Below are positions 1 through 15,455 of a stretch of 18,404 nt of DNA, in pieces (position 1 is the stretch's first letter; every line of letters starts with the position of its first letter). The DNA lies in contig JACRIR010000102.1 in the NCBI GenBank assembly GCA_016215705.1, positions 1 through 18,404 of the forward strand, in the 5' to 3' direction. Made by a program: the position numbers and the translations under genes. Origin of the DNA: Candidatus Poribacteria bacterium (GTDB taxonomy: Bacteria > Abyssobacteria > SURF-5). The notes below the pieces were generated by a model, which worked only from the letters and a program-made list of their open reading frames with translations, ran no database searches and was not told where the DNA came from.

Positions 1-1149
1 GGCAATGGCAGCGTGACTGTGGAGCCTGCCGGCCCGAACTACGACTGTGGGATTGAAGTCTGCCTTACGCCCACGCCGGCAGCCTGCTGGAGATTCGACC
101 ACTGGGAAGACGGCGCGGGAACCAGTTTGGGAAGCGCTGTCCCATTCTGCATGACCATGGACGGCAACAAGACAATCGGACCGGTCTTCGTTCGGACGCA
201 GCATAACATATACATCACCATCATCGGCGCGGGCCATGTAACGCCGCCCGGTGGGCCCTATGATTGCGGAACACAAGTTGATCTACTCGCCATTCCGGAC
301 GACCCATGCTGGCAGTTCCATCATTGGGAGGGCGACATTACCGGAACTGAAAATCCGGTGCGAGTCATCGTAAATCACGACATGCATGTCATTGCTGTGT
401 TCGTTGATATAAGTATTACCTACTGTCGCGACGCTGACACCGACGAATATGGGAATCCCATTGATAGCGTTCTAGATTGCGTAGCGCCCTCGGGATATGT
501 GGACGATTGCACCGACTGCGATGACACCAACCCGGCCGTAAATCCGGGCGAGGTGGAGACATTCTGTAATTGCATAGATGACGACTGCGAACCGGCGACA
601 CCCGACAATGGCGGCTGCTGTCCGGATTTCGGAATCGTTCTGGAAAGCGGTTACAGCCCCGTCGGCCCTGCGCTGCATCTATGCGGGGCACTTGCGGAAG
701 ACCTCTGCAATGAACTCAATTCCGGCGGCTCGGTCTGCGATAGGGTCATCCGCTACAACGTAAGCACAGGTATGTACGCCACGCACATATGCGGGCTGAC
801 GTTCAATAACTTCTCAACCGAGGACGGCGAAGGCTTCTTCTTACGTTGCTCGGGCGAGGTCACATGGTGGCAGGAAGGCTGTGACATCGCATGCCCGATA
901 GCGATTGAACTTGTCCCGGGCTATAACCCGATCGCATTGCCGGCGTGCGCCTCGACCGCTACCGCCGAGGGTTTGTGTCAGGCGATAAGAGACGCCGGCG
1001 GTTCAGCGGACAGAGTCATTCGATACCGGACGGAGACCGGTATGTACGACACTCACATCTGCGGCCTGCCATTCAACAACTTCGCGCTCGAACCCGGCGC
1101 TCTGTACTTCGTCCGCAGCCAAACAACCGCAACAGTATTGATACCATAG
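1..1149 (+). CDS. Secreted repeat protein with InlB-B-like repeats and shared Cys-rich tail (5' partial)
   Basis: The frame is open from the first base, so the start, and presumably a signal peptide, lies upstream; 382 residues are visible. Residues 1-66 and 67-136 are two divergent InlB B-type repeats. Each has a GxGxV start, a 'YDCG' strand, a 'FxHWE' core (RFDHWED, QFHHWEG) and a closing 'xxVF/VFV' strand. These are small beta domains common in surface proteins. Cysteines in 'YDCG' and before 'WxF' recur in both and could pair. From residue 141 a 242-residue tail begins: a MopE-like metal-binding segment (CRDADxDxYGNP, DCDDTNPA, CNCIDDDC, NGGCCPDFG), then two related halves ending in FVRSQTTATVLIP. 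The same tail ends the next two genes. It is probably extracellular and adhesive or structural; no catalytic motif is visible. The domain calls are from memory of the families, and the role is inferred. Confidence 0.9.
   Translation, partial: GNGSVTVEPAGPNYDCGIEVCLTPTPAACWRFDHWEDGAGTSLGSAVPFCMTMDGNKTIGPVFVRTQHNIYITIIGAGHVTPPGGPYDCGTQVDLLAIPDDPCWQFHHWEGDITGTENPVRVIVNHDMHVIAVFVDISITYCRDADTDEYGNPIDSVLDCVAPSGYVDDCTDCDDTNPAVNPGEVETFCNCIDDDCEPATPDNGGCCPDFGIVLESGYSPVGPALHLCGALAEDLCNELNSGGSVCDRVIRYNVSTGMYATHICGLTFNNFSTEDGEGFFLRCSGEVTWWQEGCDIACPIAIELVPGYNPIALPACASTATAEGLCQAIRDAGGSADRVIRYRTETGMYDTHICGLPFNNFALEPGALYFVRSQTTATVLIP
421..1149 (+). repeat. Shared 729-bp C-terminal cassette, copy 1
   Basis: This copy encodes 242 residues plus a TAG stop. 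The same module, with identical length and no indels, ends the next two genes (6780-7508 and 14727-15455). All 19 cysteines are conserved among the three. It has a MopE-like segment followed by two homologous halves, each built as GY(N/S)P...LC...RVIRY...TGMY.THICGL.FNNF. This copy is the most divergent at a few sites, for example AC in place of PC before the second half and NVSTGMYATHI in place of NISTGMYVTHI. Confidence 0.9.
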
Positions 1150-1170
1150 CAGAGGCGAGAGGGGTGCTTT

Positions 1171-1188
1171 CCCCCTTTGCAAAGGGGG
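1171..1188. repeat. Perfect 18-bp palindrome CCCCCTTTGCAAAGGGGG
   Basis: The sequence equals its own reverse complement. It lies 21 bp past the first gene's stop codon and is followed by a second G-run (GAAGGGGGAT). A near copy with a three-base loop lies in the next intergenic gap (7611-7629). No T-run follows, so it is not a classical intrinsic terminator. It looks like a short dispersed palindromic repeat, although termination on either strand cannot be excluded. Confidence 0.7.
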
Positions 1189-1218
1189 ACGAAGGGGGAT
1201 TCCATTCGCATTCCAGTT

Positions 1219-1256
1219 TTCTTTGCGCCCCTCTGCGCCTCTGCGGTAAAAAAGTC
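1219..1256. other. Low-complexity CTCTGCG-type intergenic tract
   Basis: The tract reads as tandem units of about 8-10 bp (TTTGCGCCC, CTCTGCGCC, CTCTGCGG) ending in TAAAAAAG. I recall very similar 'TTTGCGCCTCTGCGGT' strings between genes in many environmental bacterial genomes, so it is probably a dispersed repeat rather than a gene-specific signal. The rest of the 1150-1325 gap shows only the palindrome at 1171 and the ribosome binding site before 1326. Confidence 0.4.
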
Positions 1257-1310
1257 GTTTTGGACAGCAGCGATCCAAGGTCTTTCTTCTTTATAAACAG
1301 GCGTGTCGGA

Positions 1311-1318
1311 AGGGAGAG
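1311..1318 (+). promoter_or_regulatory. Ribosome binding site AGGGAGAG deciding the GTG start at 1326
   Basis: The purine-rich AGGGAGAG lies 7 bases before GTG at 1326. Translation from this GTG gives an immediate signal peptide. The frame is open further upstream (to 945), but that part overlaps the previous gene and encodes no hydrophobic leader. Confidence 0.7.
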
Positions 1319-1325
1319 TAGCATC

Positions 1326-4300
1326 GTGAAAACAAGACTATTCATCCTATCGCTGCTCGCAGTTGCATTCGTGTTCTGTTTCGCGATTGCGAACGCTGTT
1401 GCGGGCCCGTCGGACGAAGACAATGACGGCGTTTACGATGACATGGACAATTGTCCGTCCGTTTACAACCGGGACCAGGTAAATACGGACGGCGGCGGGG
1501 TCGCGGTCGGGGGAAGTGACATTCGACTCGATACGGATGCCGCCGGCGCTTCCGGGTCTTCCAGTTCCCGGATATCAACCGATTCGGCCGGCAACGTGTA
1601 CGTCACCTGGTACGACAGCAGAAACGGGCAGAACGACATCTACTTCAACCGTTCCGCGGACTATGGCGCGACGTGGCTGCCCGATGATGTTCGCCTTGAT
1701 ACGACCGCTCCCGGCGCGTCTTCCTCCTACAATCAGGTCGTGACATGCGATTCTTCCGGCAACGTGTATGTCGCATGGGATGATAGGAGGAACATAGATA
1801 TTGATATCTATTTTAATCGTTCAACTGATTATGGAGCGACATGGCTGCCCAACGACATTCGGATTGACACGAGCGCCGCAGACACGTGGTCAACAAGGCC
1901 TCAAATATCGTGTGATTCTTTCGGCCATGTGTACGTCACATGGCTGGATTACCGCAATGGCCAGACGGACATCTACTTCAATTGTTCCGCCGATCATGGC
2001 GCGACGTGGTTGCCGAGTGACCTCAGGCTTGATACGAGCGCTATCGGTGTTTCGGCGTCCTTTGACCCGCAGATATCGTGCGATTCCACCGGCCATGTGT
2101 ACGTCACCTGGTATGACTTCCGCAATGGTCGGGCGGATATCTATTTCAATCGTTCGGCGGATTACGGCGCCACGTGGCTGCCGAATGACGTCCGGCTTGA
2201 TTCGAGCGCTCCCGGCGCTCCGGGGGGGTCTCATAATCCTCATATATCAAGCGATTCATCCGGTCATGTGTATGTCACATGGTTCGATCACCGAAACGAT
2301 GCGGAGGATATCTATTTCAATTGTTCATCCGATTACGGCGCCACATGGCTGCCCGGCGATATCCGGCTTAATACTAATGCTGTTCCAGTCCCTGCTGACG
2401 TTCTGTTGTTGGATGCTCAGATATCGAGTGATTCTTCCGGCCATGTATATGTCGCGTGGGAGCACAACAGAAACGGCCTCTTCGATATTTACTTCAACCG
2501 TTCATTGGACTACGGGGCGACGTGGCTGCCCAATGACATTCGGCTCGACACGAATGGGGCAGGCGGCTCCACATCCCAGAAACCCTGCGTCTCGAGCGAC
2601 TCCACCGGCCATGTTTTTGTCACGTGGCAAGATGACCGGGCGGGGGGTAATGACATCTATTTGAACCATTCGGCCGATTACGGAACGACATGGTTGTCGG
2701 CTGACGTCCGGCTTGATACGGATGCGGCAGGCGACTCCGATTCATCCAGGCCCGTCATATCGAACGATTCCTCCCGCCACGTATATGTCGCGTGGCAAGA
2801 CTCCCGAAACGGAGCGACGGATATCTATTTCAACGGCATTCTTGTCGGAGACACTTTCGGCGACGCCTGCGACAACTGCCCCGATGCCTTGAATCAAGAT
2901 CAAGCCGATGCCGATGGCGACTCCATCGGTGACGCCTGCGACGCATGGCCTTTTGACCCCGACAACGATGCCGACGGCGACGGCGTCTCGGGACACATAG
3001 ATAATTGTCCCGACGTTTCCAACGCGGACCAGGCAAACTCGGACGGCGACGCTATCGCGGTCGGTGAAAACGACATTCGCCTCGACACGAGCGCGCCAGG
3101 CGCTTCCGCCTCTGAGAACCCTGCTATGTCGAGTGATTCTTCCGGCCACGTGTATGTCACGTGGGAAGACAGCCGAAACGGTGAGAATGACATCTATTTC
3201 AACTCTTCCTCGGATCACGGCGCCACATGGTTACTATCTGATGTCCGGCTTGATACGGATGCTGCAGGGGCACACACGTCTACATACATAGACATATCGG
3301 GTGACTCCCTCGGCCACGTCTATGTCACGTGGAGCGATTCGCGCAACGGCATGCGGGATATCTATTTCAACCGTTCGTTGGATTACGGGGCGACGTGGCT
3401 GCCCAACGACATCCGGCTCGATACGGATGCTCCGGGCGCTGACTCCTCCTACACTCCTCAAATATCGAGTGATTCCGCCGGGCAGGTGTATGTCACGTGG
3501 CACGATTACCGCAACGGCTCGTCGGATATCTATTTCAACCGCTCCTCGGATTACGGGGCGACATGGCTGCCCAACGACATTCGGCTCAATGCGACTGCGC
3601 CGGACGACTCCAATTCATGGTGGCCTAGCATTTCGAGCGATTCCGACGGCCACGTCTATGTGGCGTGGCACGATTACCGTGACAGTTCGGTGGACATCTA
3701 TTTCAATTGTTCCTCGGACTACGGCGCTACATGGCTGCCCAACGACATCCGGCTTAATGCCAGTCCTGCAGCCCTTTTTGCTGTATATATAGAACCTCAA
3801 ATATCGAGCGATTCTTCCGGCCATGTGTATGTAACATGGCACGATAACCGCAACGGCGAGTGGGATATCTACTTCAATCACTCGTCGGATTACGGGGTGA
3901 CATGGGCGCCTAACGACGCGCAAGTTGACACGAACGGGGCCGGTGTCTCACTTTCCACTTATCCCCGAATATCGAGTGATTCCGTCGGCCATGTGTACAT
4001 CACGTGGGGTGACAACCGCAATGGCACAGCCGATATCTATTTTAATCGTTCCGATGACTACGGCGCCACGTGGTTGTCAAGCGACACCCGCCTCGATACC
4101 AACGCCGCAGGCGCTTCCCACTCCTTCCTTCCCATGATATCGAGCGATTCGGGCGGTCATGTCTATGTCACATGGGCCGACAACAGGAACGGCACATACA
4201 ATATCTATTTCAATCGTTCGGCGGACTACGGAGCGACATGGTTGCCCAACGACGCTCGAATTGACAGGGAAGGGGAAGTGACATATGACATCTTTAGTCC

Positions 4301-7300
4301 TCGGCTCCGAATCTCGAGTGATTCCGCCGGCCATGCGTTTGTGGCGTGGGGCGACGCGCGGAACGGAGTGTCGGACATCTATTTCAATAGCGTCTTCGTC
4401 GGAGACTCTTTCGGCGACGCTTGTGACAACTGTCCCGATGCCCTTAACGAGGATCAGGCCGACACCGACAGCGACACCGTCGGTAACGCCTGCGATAATT
4501 GCCCCGAAGTCTCTAATCCCGATCAAGCCGATGCTGATGGCGACTCCATTGGCAACGCCTGCGACAACTGTCTCAATGTCTCGAATCCCGATCAGGCCGA
4601 CACCGATGACGACTCCATCGGCGACGCCTGCGACGCATGGCCTTACGATCCCGACAACGACGCCGATGCCGACGGCGTCTCAGGACATATAGACAACTGT
4701 CCGGACGTGGCAAACGCCGACCAGGCAGACGGGGAGATGACGACGGGACAAAACGATGTGCAGCTCGACACGGGTAGCGCAAGCGGCTCGTCCGATAGTC
4801 CCCAGGTATCGAGCGACTCGGCCGGCCATGTGTATGTCACATGGCAGGATAACAGAAACGGTCAGACCGACATCTACTTCAACAGTTCATCAAATTATGG
4901 AGTGACGTGGAGGACGCCGGCTGACATCCGGCTGGACACCACCGCTCCGGGCGCCTCCAGCTCTTCTACTCCGCAGATATCGAGCGATTCTGCCGGTCAT
5001 GTCTATGTCGCGTGGCGCGATGGCAGAAACGGCGAGTCGGACATCTATTTCAGCCGCTCGTCGGATTTTGGGGCGACATGGCTGCCTAATGACATTCGGC
5101 TTGACACGAATGCTGCGGGCGCCTTCGGCTCCACGGTTCCCGCTGTGACGAGCGATTCCGCCGGCCATGTGTACGTCGTCTGGTCCGATTCCCGCAATGG
5201 CGCGACGGATATCTATTTCAATTGCTCTTCGGACTACGGGGCGACGTGGGCGCCCAACGACAGGCGGCTTGACATGGATGGGGCAGGCGCATCCAGCGCT
5301 TATTCGCCTCAGATATCGTGCGATTCAGACGGCCATGTGTATGTCGTCTGGTACGACAACAGAAACGGGCAGTACGACATCTTCTTCTACCGCTCGTCGG
5401 ATTTTGGGGCGACGTGGGCTTCGGGGAATATGCGGCTCGATACGGATGCCCCGGGCTCTCACACTTCTATCGGGCCCTCCATATCGAGCGATTCCAGCGG
5501 CCACGTATATGTCGCGTGGCACGACAACAGAAACGGTCAGAACGACATTTATTTCAACCATTCGTCGGATTACGGGGCGACATGGGCTGTGACCGATACC
5601 CGGCTTGACACGGACGCGCCGGGCGCATTCAACTCCGCTTCTACCCGGATAGCGAGCGATTCGGCCGGCCACGTGTACGTCATTTGGTCGGATATCCGGA
5701 ACGGCATGTACGATATCTATTACAACCGCTCCACTGATTTCGGCGCCACATGGGCAGTGGCCGATATCCGGCTTGATACAAATGCGCCCGGTGCTTCCCA
5801 GTCTTACAATCCTCAAATATCAAGTGATCCTGCCGGCCATGTGTGTGTGACCTGGGCCGATAACAGAAATGGCCTGTACGATATCTACTTGAACCTCTCG
5901 TCCGATTCCGGCGCCACATGGCTGCCGGCCGACGTCCGGCTTGATACGAACGCTGCGGGCGTCTCCAGTTCCACTTTTCCGGCAATATGGAACGATTCCG
6001 CCGGCCATGCGTACGTGACTTGGCGCGACTACAGGAACGGTCGGAACGATATCTATTTCAACATTGTCACGCTGGGAGACTCTTCCGGCGACGCATGCGA
6101 CAATTGTCCGGAAATCATGAATCCGGACCAGGCGGACTCGGATGCGGACGGACTGGGGAACCTTTGCGACGGCTGTCCCACCGACCCGCTCAATGACGGC
6201 GACGGCGACGGCCTGTGCGCCGACACCGACAACTGTCCGCTGGCGCCGAACCCCGGGCAACAGGACTGCGACAGCAATGGCCTAGGCGACGCCTGTGACG
6301 CAATCAATCCGGGCGCTAGCGATTCGGCATGCAACGGTGTGGATAACAACTGCAACGGCTTAACCGACGAGGAATATGTTCCTACCGCCACCGTCTGCGG
6401 GATAGGCGAATGCGCATCCGTCGGTCAAATGCTCTGTGTGAATGGTGCTTTGCAAAACACGTGTGTTCCCGGCGCGCCGGCGCCCGAAATCTGCGACGGC
6501 GTGGATAACGACTGCGACGGCTTCATGGACGAGGATGGGAATGCCCTCTGCGATAATGGTTTGTTCTGCGACGGAGTAGAAACCTGCGGTGGAGCGCTGG
6601 CATGTCAACAGGGCGCGCCACCTAATTGCAGCGACGGCGATCCCTGTACGACTGACACGTGTGACGAGTCTGCCGACCAGTGCGCCCATGAGCCGGGAGG
6701 GATGGAAGTCTGCGATGGTGTAGACAACGATTGTGACGGACTGATTGATTGCAATGACGCCGATTTGGCATGCGTCACATACTGTCGCGACGCTGATGAG
6801 GATGGATACGGTAATCCAAATGATGGCGTAATCGGCTGCAGTGCGTCAGAGGGATATGTGGAGGATTGCTCGGACTGCGATGATACCAATCCGGCGATAG
6901 ATCCTGGTGAGATGGAGACATTCTGTAATTGCATAGATGATGACTGCAATCCGGCGACACCTGACAATGGCGGATGCTGTCCGGATTTCGGAATCGTTCT
7001 GGAAAACGGCTACAACCCCGTCGGCCCTGCGCTGCACCTGTGCGGAGCGCTTGCGGAAGACCTCTGCGCCGAACTTAATTCCGACGGCCCGGTCTGCAAT
7101 AGGGTCATCCGCTACAACATAAGCACAGGCATGTACGTGACGCACATCTGCGGGCTGGCGTTCAACAACTTCTCAACCGAGGACGGTGAGGGCTTCTTCA
7201 TACGTTGCTCCGGCGAGGTGACATGGTGGCAGGAAGGCTGTGACATCCCGTGCCCGATAGCGATTGAACTCGTACCGGGCTACAACCCGATCGCATTGCC

Positions 7301-7508
7301 GGCGTGCGCCGCGACAGCTACCGCCGAGGATTTATGTCAAGCGATCACGGCCGCTGGTGGCACGGCGGACAGAGTTATTCGGTACCGCACGGAGACAGGC
7401 ATGTACGACACACACATCTGTGGCCTGCAATTCAACAACTTCGCGCTCGAGCCCGGTGCTTTGTACTTCGTCCGCAGCCAGACTACCGCAACAGTCTTGA
7501 TACCATAG
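1326..7508 (+). CDS. Giant secreted protein with three eight-repeat Asp-box propellers nested in TSP3 repeats
   Basis: The product is 2060 residues, starting at GTG 1326. Residues 1 to about 26 form a signal peptide (KTRLFILSLLAVAFVFCF, cleaved near ANA/AVA). A TSP3 segment follows, then three propeller arrays at residues 65-503, 583-1021 and 1144-1579. Each has eight repeats with the pattern DIRLDT..., ISSDSxGHVYVTWxDxRNG, DIYFNRS, SxDYGATW. The last motif matches the sialidase-type Asp-box SxDxGxTW, with 7 boxes per array. Uninterrupted TSP3 repeats (DNCPDxxNxDQADxDxDxxGDACD pattern) lie between the arrays. Residues 1580-1818 hold more TSP3, three MopE-like CDGVDNDCDG motifs and a CNxG/CTTDTCD cysteine-rich segment. 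The shared tail is residues 1819-2060. No sialidase catalytic residues (Arg triad, FRIP) were seen, so I favour binding or structure over catalysis. The protein is probably extracellular and calcium-stabilised. Its exact function is unknown. Confidence 0.92.
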   Translation: MKTRLFILSLLAVAFVFCFAIANAVAGPSDEDNDGVYDDMDNCPSVYNRDQVNTDGGGVAVGGSDIRLDTDAAGASGSSSSRISTDSAGNVYVTWYDSRNGQNDIYFNRSADYGATWLPDDVRLDTTAPGASSSYNQVVTCDSSGNVYVAWDDRRNIDIDIYFNRSTDYGATWLPNDIRIDTSAADTWSTRPQISCDSFGHVYVTWLDYRNGQTDIYFNCSADHGATWLPSDLRLDTSAIGVSASFDPQISCDSTGHVYVTWYDFRNGRADIYFNRSADYGATWLPNDVRLDSSAPGAPGGSHNPHISSDSSGHVYVTWFDHRNDAEDIYFNCSSDYGATWLPGDIRLNTNAVPVPADVLLLDAQISSDSSGHVYVAWEHNRNGLFDIYFNRSLDYGATWLPNDIRLDTNGAGGSTSQKPCVSSDSTGHVFVTWQDDRAGGNDIYLNHSADYGTTWLSADVRLDTDAAGDSDSSRPVISNDSSRHVYVAWQDSRNGATDIYFNGILVGDTFGDACDNCPDALNQDQADADGDSIGDACDAWPFDPDNDADGDGVSGHIDNCPDVSNADQANSDGDAIAVGENDIRLDTSAPGASASENPAMSSDSSGHVYVTWEDSRNGENDIYFNSSSDHGATWLLSDVRLDTDAAGAHTSTYIDISGDSLGHVYVTWSDSRNGMRDIYFNRSLDYGATWLPNDIRLDTDAPGADSSYTPQISSDSAGQVYVTWHDYRNGSSDIYFNRSSDYGATWLPNDIRLNATAPDDSNSWWPSISSDSDGHVYVAWHDYRDSSVDIYFNCSSDYGATWLPNDIRLNASPAALFAVYIEPQISSDSSGHVYVTWHDNRNGEWDIYFNHSSDYGVTWAPNDAQVDTNGAGVSLSTYPRISSDSVGHVYITWGDNRNGTADIYFNRSDDYGATWLSSDTRLDTNAAGASHSFLPMISSDSGGHVYVTWADNRNGTYNIYFNRSADYGATWLPNDARIDREGEVTYDIFSPRLRISSDSAGHAFVAWGDARNGVSDIYFNSVFVGDSFGDACDNCPDALNEDQADTDSDTVGNACDNCPEVSNPDQADADGDSIGNACDNCLNVSNPDQADTDDDSIGDACDAWPYDPDNDADADGVSGHIDNCPDVANADQADGEMTTGQNDVQLDTGSASGSSDSPQVSSDSAGHVYVTWQDNRNGQTDIYFNSSSNYGVTWRTPADIRLDTTAPGASSSSTPQISSDSAGHVYVAWRDGRNGESDIYFSRSSDFGATWLPNDIRLDTNAAGAFGSTVPAVTSDSAGHVYVVWSDSRNGATDIYFNCSSDYGATWAPNDRRLDMDGAGASSAYSPQISCDSDGHVYVVWYDNRNGQYDIFFYRSSDFGATWASGNMRLDTDAPGSHTSIGPSISSDSSGHVYVAWHDNRNGQNDIYFNHSSDYGATWAVTDTRLDTDAPGAFNSASTRIASDSAGHVYVIWSDIRNGMYDIYYNRSTDFGATWAVADIRLDTNAPGASQSYNPQISSDPAGHVCVTWADNRNGLYDIYLNLSSDSGATWLPADVRLDTNAAGVSSSTFPAIWNDSAGHAYVTWRDYRNGRNDIYFNIVTLGDSSGDACDNCPEIMNPDQADSDADGLGNLCDGCPTDPLNDGDGDGLCADTDNCPLAPNPGQQDCDSNGLGDACDAINPGASDSACNGVDNNCNGLTDEEYVPTATVCGIGECASVGQMLCVNGALQNTCVPGAPAPEICDGVDNDCDGFMDEDGNALCDNGLFCDGVETCGGALACQQGAPPNCSDGDPCTTDTCDESADQCAHEPGGMEVCDGVDNDCDGLIDCNDADLACVTYCRDADEDGYGNPNDGVIGCSASEGYVEDCSDCDDTNPAIDPGEMETFCNCIDDDCNPATPDNGGCCPDFGIVLENGYNPVGPALHLCGALAEDLCAELNSDGPVCNRVIRYNISTGMYVTHICGLAFNNFSTEDGEGFFIRCSGEVTWWQEGCDIPCPIAIELVPGYNPIALPACAATATAEDLCQAITAAGGTADRVIRYRTETGMYDTHICGLQFNNFALEPGALYFVRSQTTATVLIP
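1518..2834 (+). repeat. Propeller array 1: eight Asp-box repeats (439 codons)
   Basis: The eight repeats are 56, 56, 55, 56, 57, 59, 56 and 44 residues long. The first seven end in an Asp-box (for example SADYGATW). The eighth stops after DIYFN, where the chain goes into VGDTFGDACDNC. The array therefore starts with an outer strand (VAVGGSDIRLDT) and ends one strand short, as expected when the first strand completes the last blade. Codons in the conserved motif vary synonymously (GCG/GCC, ACG/ACA, TAC/TAT). That points to old repeats under selection rather than a fresh tandem duplication. Confidence 0.88.
3072..4388 (+). repeat. Propeller array 2: eight Asp-box repeats (439 codons)
   Basis: This array has the same length as array 1 and the same 7 + 1 pattern: seven repeats end in an Asp-box (SSDHGATW, SLDYGATW and so on), and the eighth ends at DIYFN before SVFVGDSFGDACDNC. 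It is entered from a half TSP3 repeat (NCPDVSNADQANSDGDAI). Repeat 5 has an extended first loop (LNASPAALFAVYIEPQIS), and repeat 8 has an unusual one (REGEVTYDIFSPRLRIS). Confidence 0.88.
4755..6062 (+). repeat. Propeller array 3: eight Asp-box repeats (436 codons)
   Basis: This array has the same 7 + 1 architecture and is three residues shorter than the others. In repeat 1 the Asp-box aspartate is replaced by asparagine (SSNYGVTW). Repeats 2, 4 and 6 carry phenylalanine before the glycine (SSDFGATW, STDFGATW). The array is entered from NCPDVANADQADGEMTTGQN and leaves through VTLGDSSGDACDNC. Confidence 0.88.
6780..7508 (+). repeat. Shared 729-bp C-terminal cassette, copy 2
   Basis: This copy has the same length as the other two and the same 19 cysteines. 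By eye about 28 of 242 residues differ from the copy at 14727, roughly 88% identity. Most differences are in the first 35 residues and in solvent-type positions. The last 45 residues (RVIRY...VLIP) differ at one position only. After the stop codon, CAGAG matches the sequence after copy 1, and AGAGCCAAAAGGC (7510-7522) matches the sequence after copy 3 at 12 of 13 positions. Confidence 0.9.
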
Positions 7509-13800: not shown

Positions 13801-15455
13801 GTTTGGCAGATATGGCAGCCCAAGACCTTTTCTTCTTCTTACTGGGCGAGTTGACTAGTTCCTACTATGAGAGCATCGTGTCAACTGGCTTGTCATGCTA
13901 CACATCTTTGGAAGACCTCATCTACTACACGCTGCGCGGCGTTTTCTTGGAGATCAGTGATTCCATCCGGGATGCCTTCATTTTTGGAGCTCAGAGTCCG
14001 GTTGATATCGAGATAGTGAATAGCGAGGGGTTAATCACCTCGGTGACAGACTCGGGGGCGATCTCGGAGAATATCTCCGGGTCATTTGGCGCAAAGGCAG
14101 ACCACACAAAATGGATCGGGGCAAGCATAACCGACTCCTATACGCTACGAATCAAAGGGAACGCAATCGGGACGGCCGGCATATTCATCATACAAGCGGG
14201 CCCATATTCTGTGAGAGAATCGATAATGTATGAGAATGTCAACGTTACGGAATCCTCAGAGGGTCGGATAGCAATCACAGCAGGGACGTTCGTTCCTTAC
14301 CTTTCGATGGATAACGACGGCGATGGCTCAGAAGATGTGAGGATAGCTCCGACGAAGTTGGACGATGTTCCATTTGACGGCGCGGCGGATGACGATGCCG
14401 ATGGGATGAATAACTATGACGAAGCGGCTGTCACATTCAGCAACCCGTTCGATTCCGATACCGACGATGACGGAGTGCTCGACGGAGCTGATAACTGTCC
14501 GTTAACATCCAACCCCGCGCAGGACAACCTGGATCGCGACGACTTCGGAGACGCCTGCGATTGCGATATTGATGGGGATGGCTACAACAACTTGTCTTGC
14601 GCGGGAGATGATTGTAATGACCGCGATCCAAACATCCGCCCGTCGGCGGCAGAGATTTGCGACACCAATGACAATGACTGCGATTTGTTGATTGATTGCA
14701 ATGATCCCGACATGGTCTGCATTTCTTACTGTCGTGACGCCGACGTCGACGGATATGGGAATCCTACCGATGACGTTCTCGATTGCGTAGCGCCTCCAGG
14801 TTATGTGGACGAATGTACCGACTGCGACGACACGAACCCGGCCATAAATCCGGGTGAGCCGGAGACATCCTGTAATTGTATAGATGACGACTGCGAACCG
14901 GCGACTCCTGACAATGGTGGCTGCTGTCCGGATTTCGGCATCGTTCTGGAAAATGGCTACAACCCCGTCGGCCCTGCGCTGCACCTGTGCGGAGCGCTCG
15001 CGGAAGACCTCTGTGCCGAACTTAATTCCGGCGGCTCGGTCTGCAATCGAGTCATCCGCTACAACATAAGCACAGGCATGTACGTCACCCACATATGCGG
15101 ACTGACGTTCAATAACTTCTCAACCGACGACGGCGAAGGCTTCTTCATCCGTTGCTCCGACGAAGTGACATGGTGGCAGGAAGGCTGTGACATCCCATGC
15201 CCGACAGCGATTGAATTGGTTCCGGGCTATAACCCGATCGCGTTGCCGACTTGCGCCACGACCGCTACCGCCGAGGGTTTATGTCAGGCGATAAGAGACG
15301 CCGGCGGTTCAGCGGATAGAGTCATTCGATACCGCACGGAGACCGGCATGTACGACACACATATCTGCGGGCTGCAATTCAACAACTTCGCGCTCGAACC
15401 CGGCGCCCTGTACTTCGTCCGGAGCCAGACGAACGCGACCGTCTTAATACCGTAA
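7830..15455 (+). CDS. Giant secreted multidomain protein with Zn-phospholipase C-like domain, propeller and shared tail
   Basis: The product is 2541 residues. Its signal peptide is residues 1-24 (cleaved after ALA). Residues about 29-130 resemble a CARDB-type Ig domain. Residues about 140-548 resemble zinc-dependent phospholipase C/P1-nuclease folds: H155 in HQYLAGEAA, GTHEED at 277-282, NHF at 318-320, and HLLADMALPAHANGDAH with H384, D388 and H394 matching the family signature HYxxDxxxPxHxxN. A seven-repeat propeller (647-991; WxDxRNGxxxIY motif, no Asp-boxes) sits between two 68-residue calcium-binding modules. NEW3/Ig-like, FN3-like (1187-1277) and CARDB-like (about 1770-1900) domains follow. 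A helical segment reaches about 2050, then an SPVDIEIV beta domain, TSP3/MopE-like motifs (2186-2299) and the shared tail (2300-2541). Cleavage of phospholipids or phosphoesters outside the cell is plausible but inferred; not every zinc ligand could be assigned. Base composition differs along the gene. Confidence 0.9.
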   Translation: MRRNPAIFAACLIIFLVSSHIALAQETSHDLAVKGIAFTPNQILKTETVQVVVGIENRGSYDEKNVTVILEIRQIEFAHKKSIPLIRHGETPFVKFPIPVAVSELPRAVTIVARIVPVDSETNLANNQERLRLLLQERDGIITPMHKSEPMTQAHQYLAGEAARIWPGTNGLDLQSQDDWTNFFNGSHSEIWDYIGAKTTYVPIDTYGVVTYGGRDHNGQPITDTTWPSPSIGRVSYSCYNEEVYYSFDLETPGGDGSCDNLTVGGFQNGGNDIIEGTHEEDLFNAISNLGLPDNFFNGSTLDGGAESNLNGAFIFYNHFRNVDESHNGGDEDGLTSFTFTASTSAIEKAEKYWNEYVIPYYLGINDKPVNKELSYYYLGRVAHLLADMALPAHANGDAHVLDVDAYEYYMGQHYAEYTFNEIPQLDLNGDVVGRKPWAYSAGDWNYSDFNYVRTQIPGTTWDPEEPNDAVAQAKWNQKSPLYHLFWCTAEIADNYDSDGANGEVNPGRFNSDGWFADSESRLVGDNLMRQAMKSVAELYKLFWDSVNDSDADGLLGYDEIGIYGTDPDVVDTDNDGIDDGDEVAYWGNDWNANPDHDGFINLLDPDSDNDTIADGPDNCRAIFNPGQEDADADGTGDVCEPAPTEWPLVTQTANQTNPAIASDSLGNIHVVWQDYRNGNWEIYFSKYDSDGRPLVLDVRVTNTSASSTWPDVSTDSSGNSYVVWDEARAVRFCKLGPVGNKLTGDISVSGSSTSDPYPTIATTPSGISHMAYERTVVTSYRLYYSKFAADGSRIGSELSVYSDNVTGDFPKKADCGLDSSGNCYITWRDHDLWWNIGIYVRRINSNMTMQASVRRLVSDSARNPRISVTGTDQYRLIYEDMRGATSEIYLNLGVNNDRQISETVGSAYEPAIVTDSLNHSFIPWHDNRNGKYDVYLIEIGSDNATIGPDLRISHGPANSQSPDICLAGGRYKIVWQDNKNGNWDIYANFGSNLGLDSDSDGLSDSDETSVYGTLPNDDDSDNDGINDGDEVAYWGSRWNQDIDADARINLLDDDSDGDGVNDGQERTNGTDPGIPNVVNVSIIPSAETVAVGGSAEYFVRLENLTQSACTVTLDIIGLSIDPSWVSFGANPVTLIAGEARDVSMTVAVPLDCSIGYTETELVVLESAPCAGSGRTASTTVFITPDPQISDLLPTDSTKTPTTSVLVSWRTNMSAMGAVYYRAASSGEYQTVTGPDGADHSILLQGLLPDTTYYWHVESATPCGDSTSEVRQFTTGRAVAFEYPTYAFEVPIAYDQHVSVGIVNTDTLASHEVLLSVVNPYNDIAAGFVGAGSEGVPLIIAPGETRAVDLALHTPDATKTDYVLQLMLTSDPRTPAEAGDIAVANIHVRRPVVNFSLTQISSDPVTLTNTYEITNSGDALTDMTVKADDTLRGRLIFVPKIEHMTMASGQSITFKATFVPDDAVTSTDGALTATAAGHSENLSTHFGCAIGTTLYDVTLANPHYCVLADNWYCTNRPQISSALEVPAGISASNVTRAGVYIRFEPHSGALNHNVKILLNGVVVGEIRDTVPSGDYGFAVPPSAFHYATSGVAQNTIDIHTEHLSGGHYVVATSVRLYMELSQMQVSVCAASQPEAQAAAQNVPYLGGCDISDLNLCPRITNVAILDSAGQPRESFIPGENVQTAFHVLNPDLVAHQFTARVTFDDTPGDGIPIGAAQAGITVLPNSDTPLQFSWDLPVAASGERIYVQIQLNETGCGDSTGYTTSFMVDCKPDLVIVSGGSYSPNPAEVALDTVFTIRIKNIGGGASKGGQVILKSVIRYRNRNEDFAASAQSIPILPLGPGETTDIFLTRQFAHPYKALDHAQLLFEFIPLATQVSQPWEIDSDVSNNLGCYDDFIVNVNPAHYLDCAAALVGGYFSAANPRFEVLFSTTSVARDMASCLLTDGTLGTLNLPYNLSVYGVADAIQNQNFEESGRGIGRISNDFNENLVPCLADMAAQDLFFFLLGELTSSYYESIVSTGLSCYTSLEDLIYYTLRGVFLEISDSIRDAFIFGAQSPVDIEIVNSEGLITSVTDSGAISENISGSFGAKADHTKWIGASITDSYTLRIKGNAIGTAGIFIIQAGPYSVRESIMYENVNVTESSEGRIAITAGTFVPYLSMDNDGDGSEDVRIAPTKLDDVPFDGAADDDADGMNNYDEAAVTFSNPFDSDTDDDGVLDGADNCPLTSNPAQDNLDRDDFGDACDCDIDGDGYNNLSCAGDDCNDRDPNIRPSAAEICDTNDNDCDLLIDCNDPDMVCISYCRDADVDGYGNPTDDVLDCVAPPGYVDECTDCDDTNPAINPGEPETSCNCIDDDCEPATPDNGGCCPDFGIVLENGYNPVGPALHLCGALAEDLCAELNSGGSVCNRVIRYNISTGMYVTHICGLTFNNFSTDDGEGFFIRCSDEVTWWQEGCDIPCPTAIELVPGYNPIALPTCATTATAEGLCQAIRDAGGSADRVIRYRTETGMYDTHICGLQFNNFALEPGALYFVRSQTNATVLIP
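9474..9677 (+). repeat. 68-residue calcium-binding module, copy 1 (before propeller)
   Basis: This module encodes DSDADGLLGYDE, DTDNDGIDDGDEVAYWG and INLLDPDSDNDTIADG. It has exactly the same length as the copy at 10818-11021, and 42 of 68 residues are identical by hand alignment. The aspartate ladders (DxDxDGxxDxxE) are typical bacterial TSP3-like or EF-hand-like calcium loops. One more TSP3 repeat (DNCRAIFNPGQEDADADGTG) follows before the propeller begins. Confidence 0.8.
9768..10802 (+). repeat. Seven-repeat beta-propeller region
   Basis: Seven diverged repeats of about 42-55 residues contain the pattern PxI(A/V)xDSxGNxxVVWxDxRNGxxxIY, clearest in repeats 1, 6 and 7 (HVVWQDYRNGNWEIYF, IPWHDNRNGKYDVYL, IVWQDNKNGNWDIYA). 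They share the WxDxRNG..DIY core with the neighbouring gene's arrays but lack Asp-boxes and are far less regular. The region starts with a strand (WPLVTQTA) and ends after DIYANFG, so the first strand could close the seventh blade. Confidence 0.7.
10818..11021 (+). repeat. 68-residue calcium-binding module, copy 2 (after propeller)
   Basis: This is the partner of the module at 9474-9677. It encodes DSDSDGLSDSDE, DSDNDGINDGDEVAYWG and INLLDDDSDGDGVNDG. The two copies bracket the propeller, so either a propeller was inserted between duplicated modules or the module was duplicated around it. Confidence 0.8.
14727..15455 (+). repeat. Shared 729-bp C-terminal cassette, copy 3
   Basis: 242 residues plus a TAA stop (the other two copies use TAG). 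All 19 cysteines are present. The two internal halves are GYNPVGPALHLC...FNNFSTDDGEGFFIR and GYNPIALPTC...FNNFALEPGALYFVR. Past the stop, AGAGCCGAAAGGC (15461-15473) matches the sequence after copy 2, and GGCGAGAGGGG (15471-15481) is identical to 1154-1164 after copy 1. Confidence 0.9.

Follow-up and report, generated by a model that had tools for sequence, protein, structure and literature searches.

An 18,404-nucleotide contig of a Candidatus Poribacteria bacterium (JACRIR010000102.1, assembly GCA_016215705.1), one of the 270 contigs of the source genome and analysed here in its entire length as the window, carries a gene for a protein of 2060 residues in which three beta-propellers of the Asp-box type are each placed inside a TSP3 calcium-binding repeat. 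The product is probably a secreted stalk protein of the cell surface or the extracellular space, whose calcium-rigidified TSP3 rod displays closed eight-bladed propellers as loop insertions. The location of propellers within TSP3 repeats was proposed in a preliminary description of this DNA and obtained strong support from the sequence, as the same register was registered in all 14 split repeats collected from this and other loci. The interval 1423–6175, to which the description assigned this architecture, indeed contains the arrays and the TSP3 halves, but the gene is larger. Its open frame spans positions 945–7508, the probable start is GTG at 1326, with GGAAGGGAGAG upstream of it and a typical signal peptide VKTRLFILSLLAVAFVFCFAIANAVAG directly after it, and the stop is at 7508. 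The signal peptide is followed by three units composed of a split TSP3 repeat and a propeller, more TSP3 repeats, MopE-type motifs and a C-terminal module.

Complete TSP3 repeats of this protein match PF02412 above the cut-off and contain the consensus DNCPxxxNxDQxDxDxDxxGDxCD. Integrity of the interrupted ones was estimated with a position matrix built on 481 complete TSP3 24-mers from other genomes, for which the median score of controls was 69.5 bits. Halves from the window, if joined, gave 24-mers scoring 66–76 bits, versus −33 to 29 bits for the unjoined variants, so that the earlier statement that joining restores the TSP3 pattern holds. For all 14 split repeats this sequence test gave 63–81 bits, and a cut after position 15 was either the best or no more than 1 bit below the best in each of them (14/14), in spite of five unrelated types of inserts. 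The cut follows the third acidic residue of the motif Q-x-[DN]-x-[DE] ^ G-D-x-x-G-D-x-C-D, which at the three cut sites of the window is D, D and E, respectively, the third ligand at array 3 being Glu (QADGE). Because it falls exactly between this ligand and G-D-x-x-G-D-x-C-D, every acidic and Cys position is retained even though the halves are separated by about 440–460 residues. The “GGG” and “GD” previously quoted as the ends of first halves have to be withdrawn, as they are either part of the insert or a repetition of the G-D pair. In a trial alignment MAFFT opened its gap at the cut site without being prompted, so that the 29 uninterrupted TSP3 repeats included spanned the insert, and this sequence set was then used for modelling. 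An alignment with eight additional propeller rows misplaced the middles of TSP3 repeats into blades 1–2, while with fewer propeller rows it was clean.

Translation and coordinates agree with the eight repeats per array (439, 439 and 436 residues) and seven Asp-boxes in each that had been counted before, and the limits of all three arrays were also defined correctly: the first segment is an outer strand (DIRLD/DVQLD) and the last one is DIYFN. The repeat VYVTWxDxRNGxxDIYFN, 56 residues long and spaced by 55–59 residues, occurs eight times per array and 24 times in total. The pattern S.[DN].G.TW was found 21 times in the arrays versus at most 1 match in 2000 shuffled versions of these residues, which excludes chance. 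Blades inside the arrays are highly similar (median identity 55–66%), and loop 2-3 with the motif W-x-D-x-R-N-G is nearly invariant (W and R in 24 of 24 blades, D in 23 of 24). Pfam assigns the arrays to BNR_2/BNR_4 (PF13088/PF15892), while the NCBIfam beta-propeller repeat TIGR04275 matches the protein (P0001) with 214.5 bits at a curated cut-off of 85, which makes it a member of this family. Repeated S-x-D-x-G-x-T-W boxes characteristic of the Asp-box beta-propeller superfamily are present. Eight blades were also found in relatives from Scalindua, Verrucomicrobia, Anammoxibacter, Pirellulales, Omnitrophota and Nitrospirae that have no TSP3 split, so this number is a property of the repeat family; in one of them (L067) a script pattern found seven blades, and NNGYIVWYDSQNG was recognised as the eighth on visual inspection. 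Arrays of 16 blades from the same repeat family, registered in Candidatus Scalindua (L066 and L068), were read as two consecutive eight-blade propellers.

Split TSP3 repeats are not restricted to the window. Two other contigs of the same genome encode three more propellers in this context (one at locus L051 and two at L052), and all six propeller units of this genome have eight blades and one register. A LamG domain is located inside a split TSP3 repeat in the same genome (L065), and in genomes of sister genera within this family the same position is taken by NHL propellers (L060, L061, L181), by a LamG domain and by a CBM96 domain (both in L061), as confirmed by Pfam. Beyond the family, Pfam confirmed an F5/8C domain inside a split repeat on a Nitrospirae contig (L138) and a LamG domain in an uncultured planctomycete (L204). 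Thus, five unrelated types of inserts, 140–460 residues long and, apart from the Asp-box propellers, mostly binding modules, occupy one TSP3 position. The search for interrupted TSP3 repeats suggested in the preliminary description therefore did reveal further Asp-box arrays, but the split site turned out to be general and accepts other domains as well. Within the retrieved loci, which are not a census, 12 split and 88 complete repeats were counted in this family versus 2 and 724 elsewhere (481 of the matrix set and 243 from a scan of 40 further loci), giving a Fisher p-value for enrichment of 4e-10 if all copies are counted and 5e-5 if copies are collapsed. No new splits appeared beside the 243 complete repeats in these 40 TSP3-rich loci, which represent many families. 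When planctomycetes were searched as a whole with a split LamG unit, most matches covered LamG only, which suggests that the split is rare in them. Locus L175 (G000:C178) has an open frame of 5026 residues, very rich in TSP3 repeats, none of which is confidently split. In L052 (1–9500), the two split units are preceded, within an open frame of 2806 residues, by many TSP3 repeats, parallel-beta-helix-like repeats and an M6-like metalloprotease region, whose HETGH motif was recognised by eye.

Such a distribution may be understood in two ways, both compatible with the architecture itself. One can assume, with roughly even chances, that bacteria have repeatedly used one structurally privileged, insertion-tolerant TSP3 loop as a socket into which unrelated binding domains with neighbouring ends are plugged, calcium controlling the rigidity of the displayed domain; NHL, LamG, CBM96 and F5/8C domains do occupy in related proteins the place taken here by the propellers. 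Alternatively, a single ancestral split was followed by swaps of inserts via recombination between repetitive TSP3 coding stretches, so that the common position reflects common descent. This rival to repeated insertion deserves serious attention, though we lean against it. It fits the occurrence of 12 of the 14 splits in one bacterial family and the evident duplication of units: between arrays, blades of equal position are slightly more similar to each other than blades of unequal position (60.3 versus 56.4%, in 15 of 15 array pairs), which points to duplication of entire eight-blade units. However, LamG or F5/8C splits also exist in a planctomycete and in Nitrospirae, linkers on either side vary with the type of insert, and a swap inside short half-repeats requires two close crossovers.

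Structural models were obtained with AlphaFold2 for array 2, in a first run together with its flanks on the basis of 11 aligned sequences, and in a second run after 29 TSP3 repeats lacking an interruption had been added to the alignment so as to bridge the insert. Both runs gave eight groups of three long strands with short outer strands. At the N-terminus, a short strand at IR (model residues 69–70) was assigned as paired and another one was found at IAV (residues 62–64 of the first model), and the last strand was extended (DIYFNSVFV). Since the third strand of blade 8 is the only plausible partner for the paired IR strand, the model points to a 1+3 Velcro closure, and the closed eight-bladed ring with N-terminal strand closure, expected from the sequence alone, was thus reproduced in the prediction. 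In the first run the predicted local distance difference test score (pLDDT) was about 90 for the array and below 50 for the TSP3 flanks. In the second run its mean value reached 86.1 with a predicted template modelling score (pTM) of 0.84 and 0 residues below 50; TSP3 parts mostly scored 83–90, with the block 21–30 at 73 and the last block at 62. Blades and closing strand were therefore predicted as anticipated, whereas the TSP3 halves became confident only with TSP3 rows aligned. The second run is consistent with packing of the two halves together, but it is not an independent proof of docking, because the aligned TSP3 rows carry the hypothesis of homology.

The low confidence of flanks in the first run, which contained few TSP3 rows, could also be expected if propellers were strung between TSP3 tandems like beads and the adjacent partial repeats were truncated leftovers rather than parts of one split repeat. 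A propeller-like array following a complete TSP3 repeat directly, with no split, does exist in the neighbouring gene product P0002. Nevertheless, we regard this arrangement as improbable for the three units: in 14 of 14 cases the pieces are exactly complementary, with acidic and Cys positions retained and joins scoring at the control level, which argues against random truncation, and the position is common to five unrelated insert types.

Comparison by Foldseek and VIA aligned the array (model residues 63–511) with closed propellers from PDB, most of them seven-bladed. The best VIA matches included CylK (Z 26.8, root-mean-square deviation (rmsd) 3.7, 345 residues) and PLL lectins, the latter with Z about 24–24.5, rmsd 3.7–4.0 and ~320 aligned residues at 12–15 percent identity. 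These best matches are seven-bladed, and the matches listed contained no structure recognisable as a solved Asp-box propeller with eight blades. A toroidal propeller with four-stranded blades and closure, typical of the Asp-box superfamily, is therefore present as a prediction.

As the sequence shows, each propeller interrupts one TSP3 repeat past its third acidic ligand, and we propose that the array closes, as in the model, by 1+3 Velcro, so that blade 8 is completed by the N-terminal strand. Exit and entry strands leading into the TSP3 halves are predicted to take the place of this blade's 3-4 hairpin, where an eighth Asp-box would lie. Seven boxes (n−1) can then be explained by the closing blade having no continuous 3-4 hairpin, this point being occupied by the TSP3 repeat. 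With exit and entry strands both at the closing blade, the ends of the ring would be adjacent and the TSP3 halves would meet, which is what insertion into a short loop requires. Binding of Ca2+ may lock both halves and so hold the ring rigidly by its bottom edge, while the top face would stay accessible. Loops 2-3 with W-x-D-x-R on this face might form eight near-identical pockets per ring and 24 per protein. The propellers are probably multivalent, lectin-like binders: a W-x-D-x-R-N-G motif that recurs in almost every blade is well suited to symmetric, multivalent binding, and since other inserts are mainly binding modules, a Ca2+-rigid stalk displaying binding domains can be assumed. Adhesion or capture of glycans or particulate organic matter may be the role of such a protein.

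Several observations weigh against this interpretation. High confidence of the TSP3 parts in the second run depends on rows that impose homology across the insert. The predicted closure of the ring and the contact between TSP3 halves are deduced from DSSP, pLDDT and pTM of Ca2+-free models, the strand pairing being derived from DSSP assignments. The best PDB matches are seven-bladed, leaving the eighth blade without a direct template. As for ligand binding, comparison by sequence leads to sialidases among the solved structures, and an enzyme, CylK, is found beside lectins among the closest matches by structure. The idea that the propellers are active or degenerate sialidase-like glycosidases rather than binding domains, prompted by BNR_2/BNR_4 assignments and by GH33 sialidases as sequence-level PDB matches, is nonetheless unlikely, as eight near-identical blades fit poorly to the asymmetric active site of GH33 enzymes, which have six blades, and neither the [RK]IP motif nor a G-x-G-x-G bulge was found in the protein.

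In Asp-box propellers the box forms the hairpin of strands 3-4 on the bottom face, 1+3 closure is usual, with the last blade completed by the N-terminal strand, n boxes were seen in no n-bladed structure, and glycosidases hold their ligands with loop 2-3 of the top face (Quistgaard & Thirup 2009, PMC2716378). Blade numbers are 6 in GH33 sialidases, 7 in GH74 and YP_299179.1, and 10 in the Vps10 domain (PMC2716378). The arrays share with this group the S-x-D-x-G-x-T-W box between outer strands, n−1 boxes, four-stranded blades and the predicted 1+3 closure, but they are eight-bladed, highly symmetric and, judging by the motif searches, devoid of a catalytic signature, with a split TSP3 repeat at the position of the missing box. 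Membership in GH33 sialidases was rejected: each array has eight repeats instead of six blades and no [RK]IP is present anywhere in the protein ([FY]RIP test). The arrays score over the cut-off of TIGR04275 (Methanosarcina-type), but this 40-residue model spans only a part of the 56-residue blade and the TSP3 context is outside it. With PLL-type lectins (Photorhabdus PLL/PHL), which are symmetric multivalent propellers and among the best structural matches, the likeness was established at the level of the fold; PLL has seven blades and low sequence identity.

Thrombospondin and COMP structures (PDB 3fby, 1yo8, 1ux6) contain the same TSP3 consensus and gave strong sequence matches, though on uninterrupted repeats only, while here one repeat per unit is split. 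TSP3 cohesion proteins of the MtsC type (NF047638) and other bacterial TSP3 proteins are likewise secreted and TSP3-rich. Membership in the MtsC family was rejected (131.9 bits versus a cut-off of 350), and the inserted domains lie outside that model. Among the openly available papers searched, on TSP3 with propellers, LamG, prokaryotic TSP3 and MtsC, none describes TSP3 repeats interrupted by folded domains. Every component is known (PF02412, PF13088/PF15892, TIGR04275), as are nested domains in general; what is new is the way in which they are combined here.

Table 1. Positions of the described elements in the window
Feature	Position	Strand	Basis
Secreted multidomain protein gene, 2060 residues	1326..7508	+	Open frame, Pfam, signal peptide
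Split TSP3 repeat 1, first half DNCPSVYNRDQVNTD	1446..1490	+	Join test with position matrix
Eight-blade Asp-box array 1, protein residues 65–503, 439 residues, 7 Asp-boxes	1518..2834	+	
Split TSP3 repeat 1, second half GDTFGDACD	2847..2873	+	Join test
Complete TSP3 repeat, interval between units 1 and 2	2871..2942	+	Pfam, coordinates
Split TSP3 repeat 2, first half DNCPDVSNADQANSD	3000..3044	+	Join test
Eight-blade Asp-box array 2, protein residues 583–1021, 439 residues, 7 Asp-boxes, AlphaFold2-modelled	3072..4388	+	
Split TSP3 repeat 2, second half GDSFGDACD	4401..4427	+	Join test
Three complete TSP3 repeats, interval between units 2 and 3	4425..4634	+	Pfam, coordinates
Split TSP3 repeat 3, first half DNCPDVANADQADGE	4692..4736	+	Join test
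Eight-blade Asp-box array 3, protein residues 1144–1579, 436 residues, 7 Asp-boxes	4755..6062	+	
Split TSP3 repeat 3, second half GDSSGDACD	6075..6101	+	Join test
Two complete TSP3 repeats past unit 3 (6099–6170, 6228–6299), MopE-type Cys/Asp motifs farther downstream	6099..6299	+	Pfam
C-terminal module, 188 residues	6942..7505	+	Shared at 90–94% identity with two genes nearby and with a gene of another contig

Copies of the 188-residue C-terminal module, which starts with CCPDFGIVLENGYNPVG and ends with FVRSQTTATVLIP before the stop, are located at 583–1146, 6942–7505 and 14889–15452 of the window and at G000:C221:15144–15707. No Pfam or NCBIfam model covers this module, except for the MopE motif, and it may serve for sorting or anchoring. 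The product of the adjacent gene, P0002 (7773–15455), has a second, more divergent propeller-like array beside complete TSP3 repeats, as well as CARDB, a weak match to zinc-dependent phospholipase C, an N domain of purple acid phosphatase and MopE motifs. P0003 (15485–18403) is transglutaminase-like, and its gene is interrupted by the contig end.

The arrays would add an eight-bladed size class to Asp-box propellers, for which the 2009 survey lists 5, 6, 7 and 10 blades (PMC2716378). If the proposed arrangement is true, a repeat of ~24 residues taking folded domains of 140–460 residues at one position would be a natural loop-display scaffold of interest for protein engineering, and split TSP3 repeats would provide a test case for the evolution of domain insertion. 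For the organism itself it offers a testable idea of how bacteria of this uncultured lineage may present binding rings on a stalk that depends on calcium.

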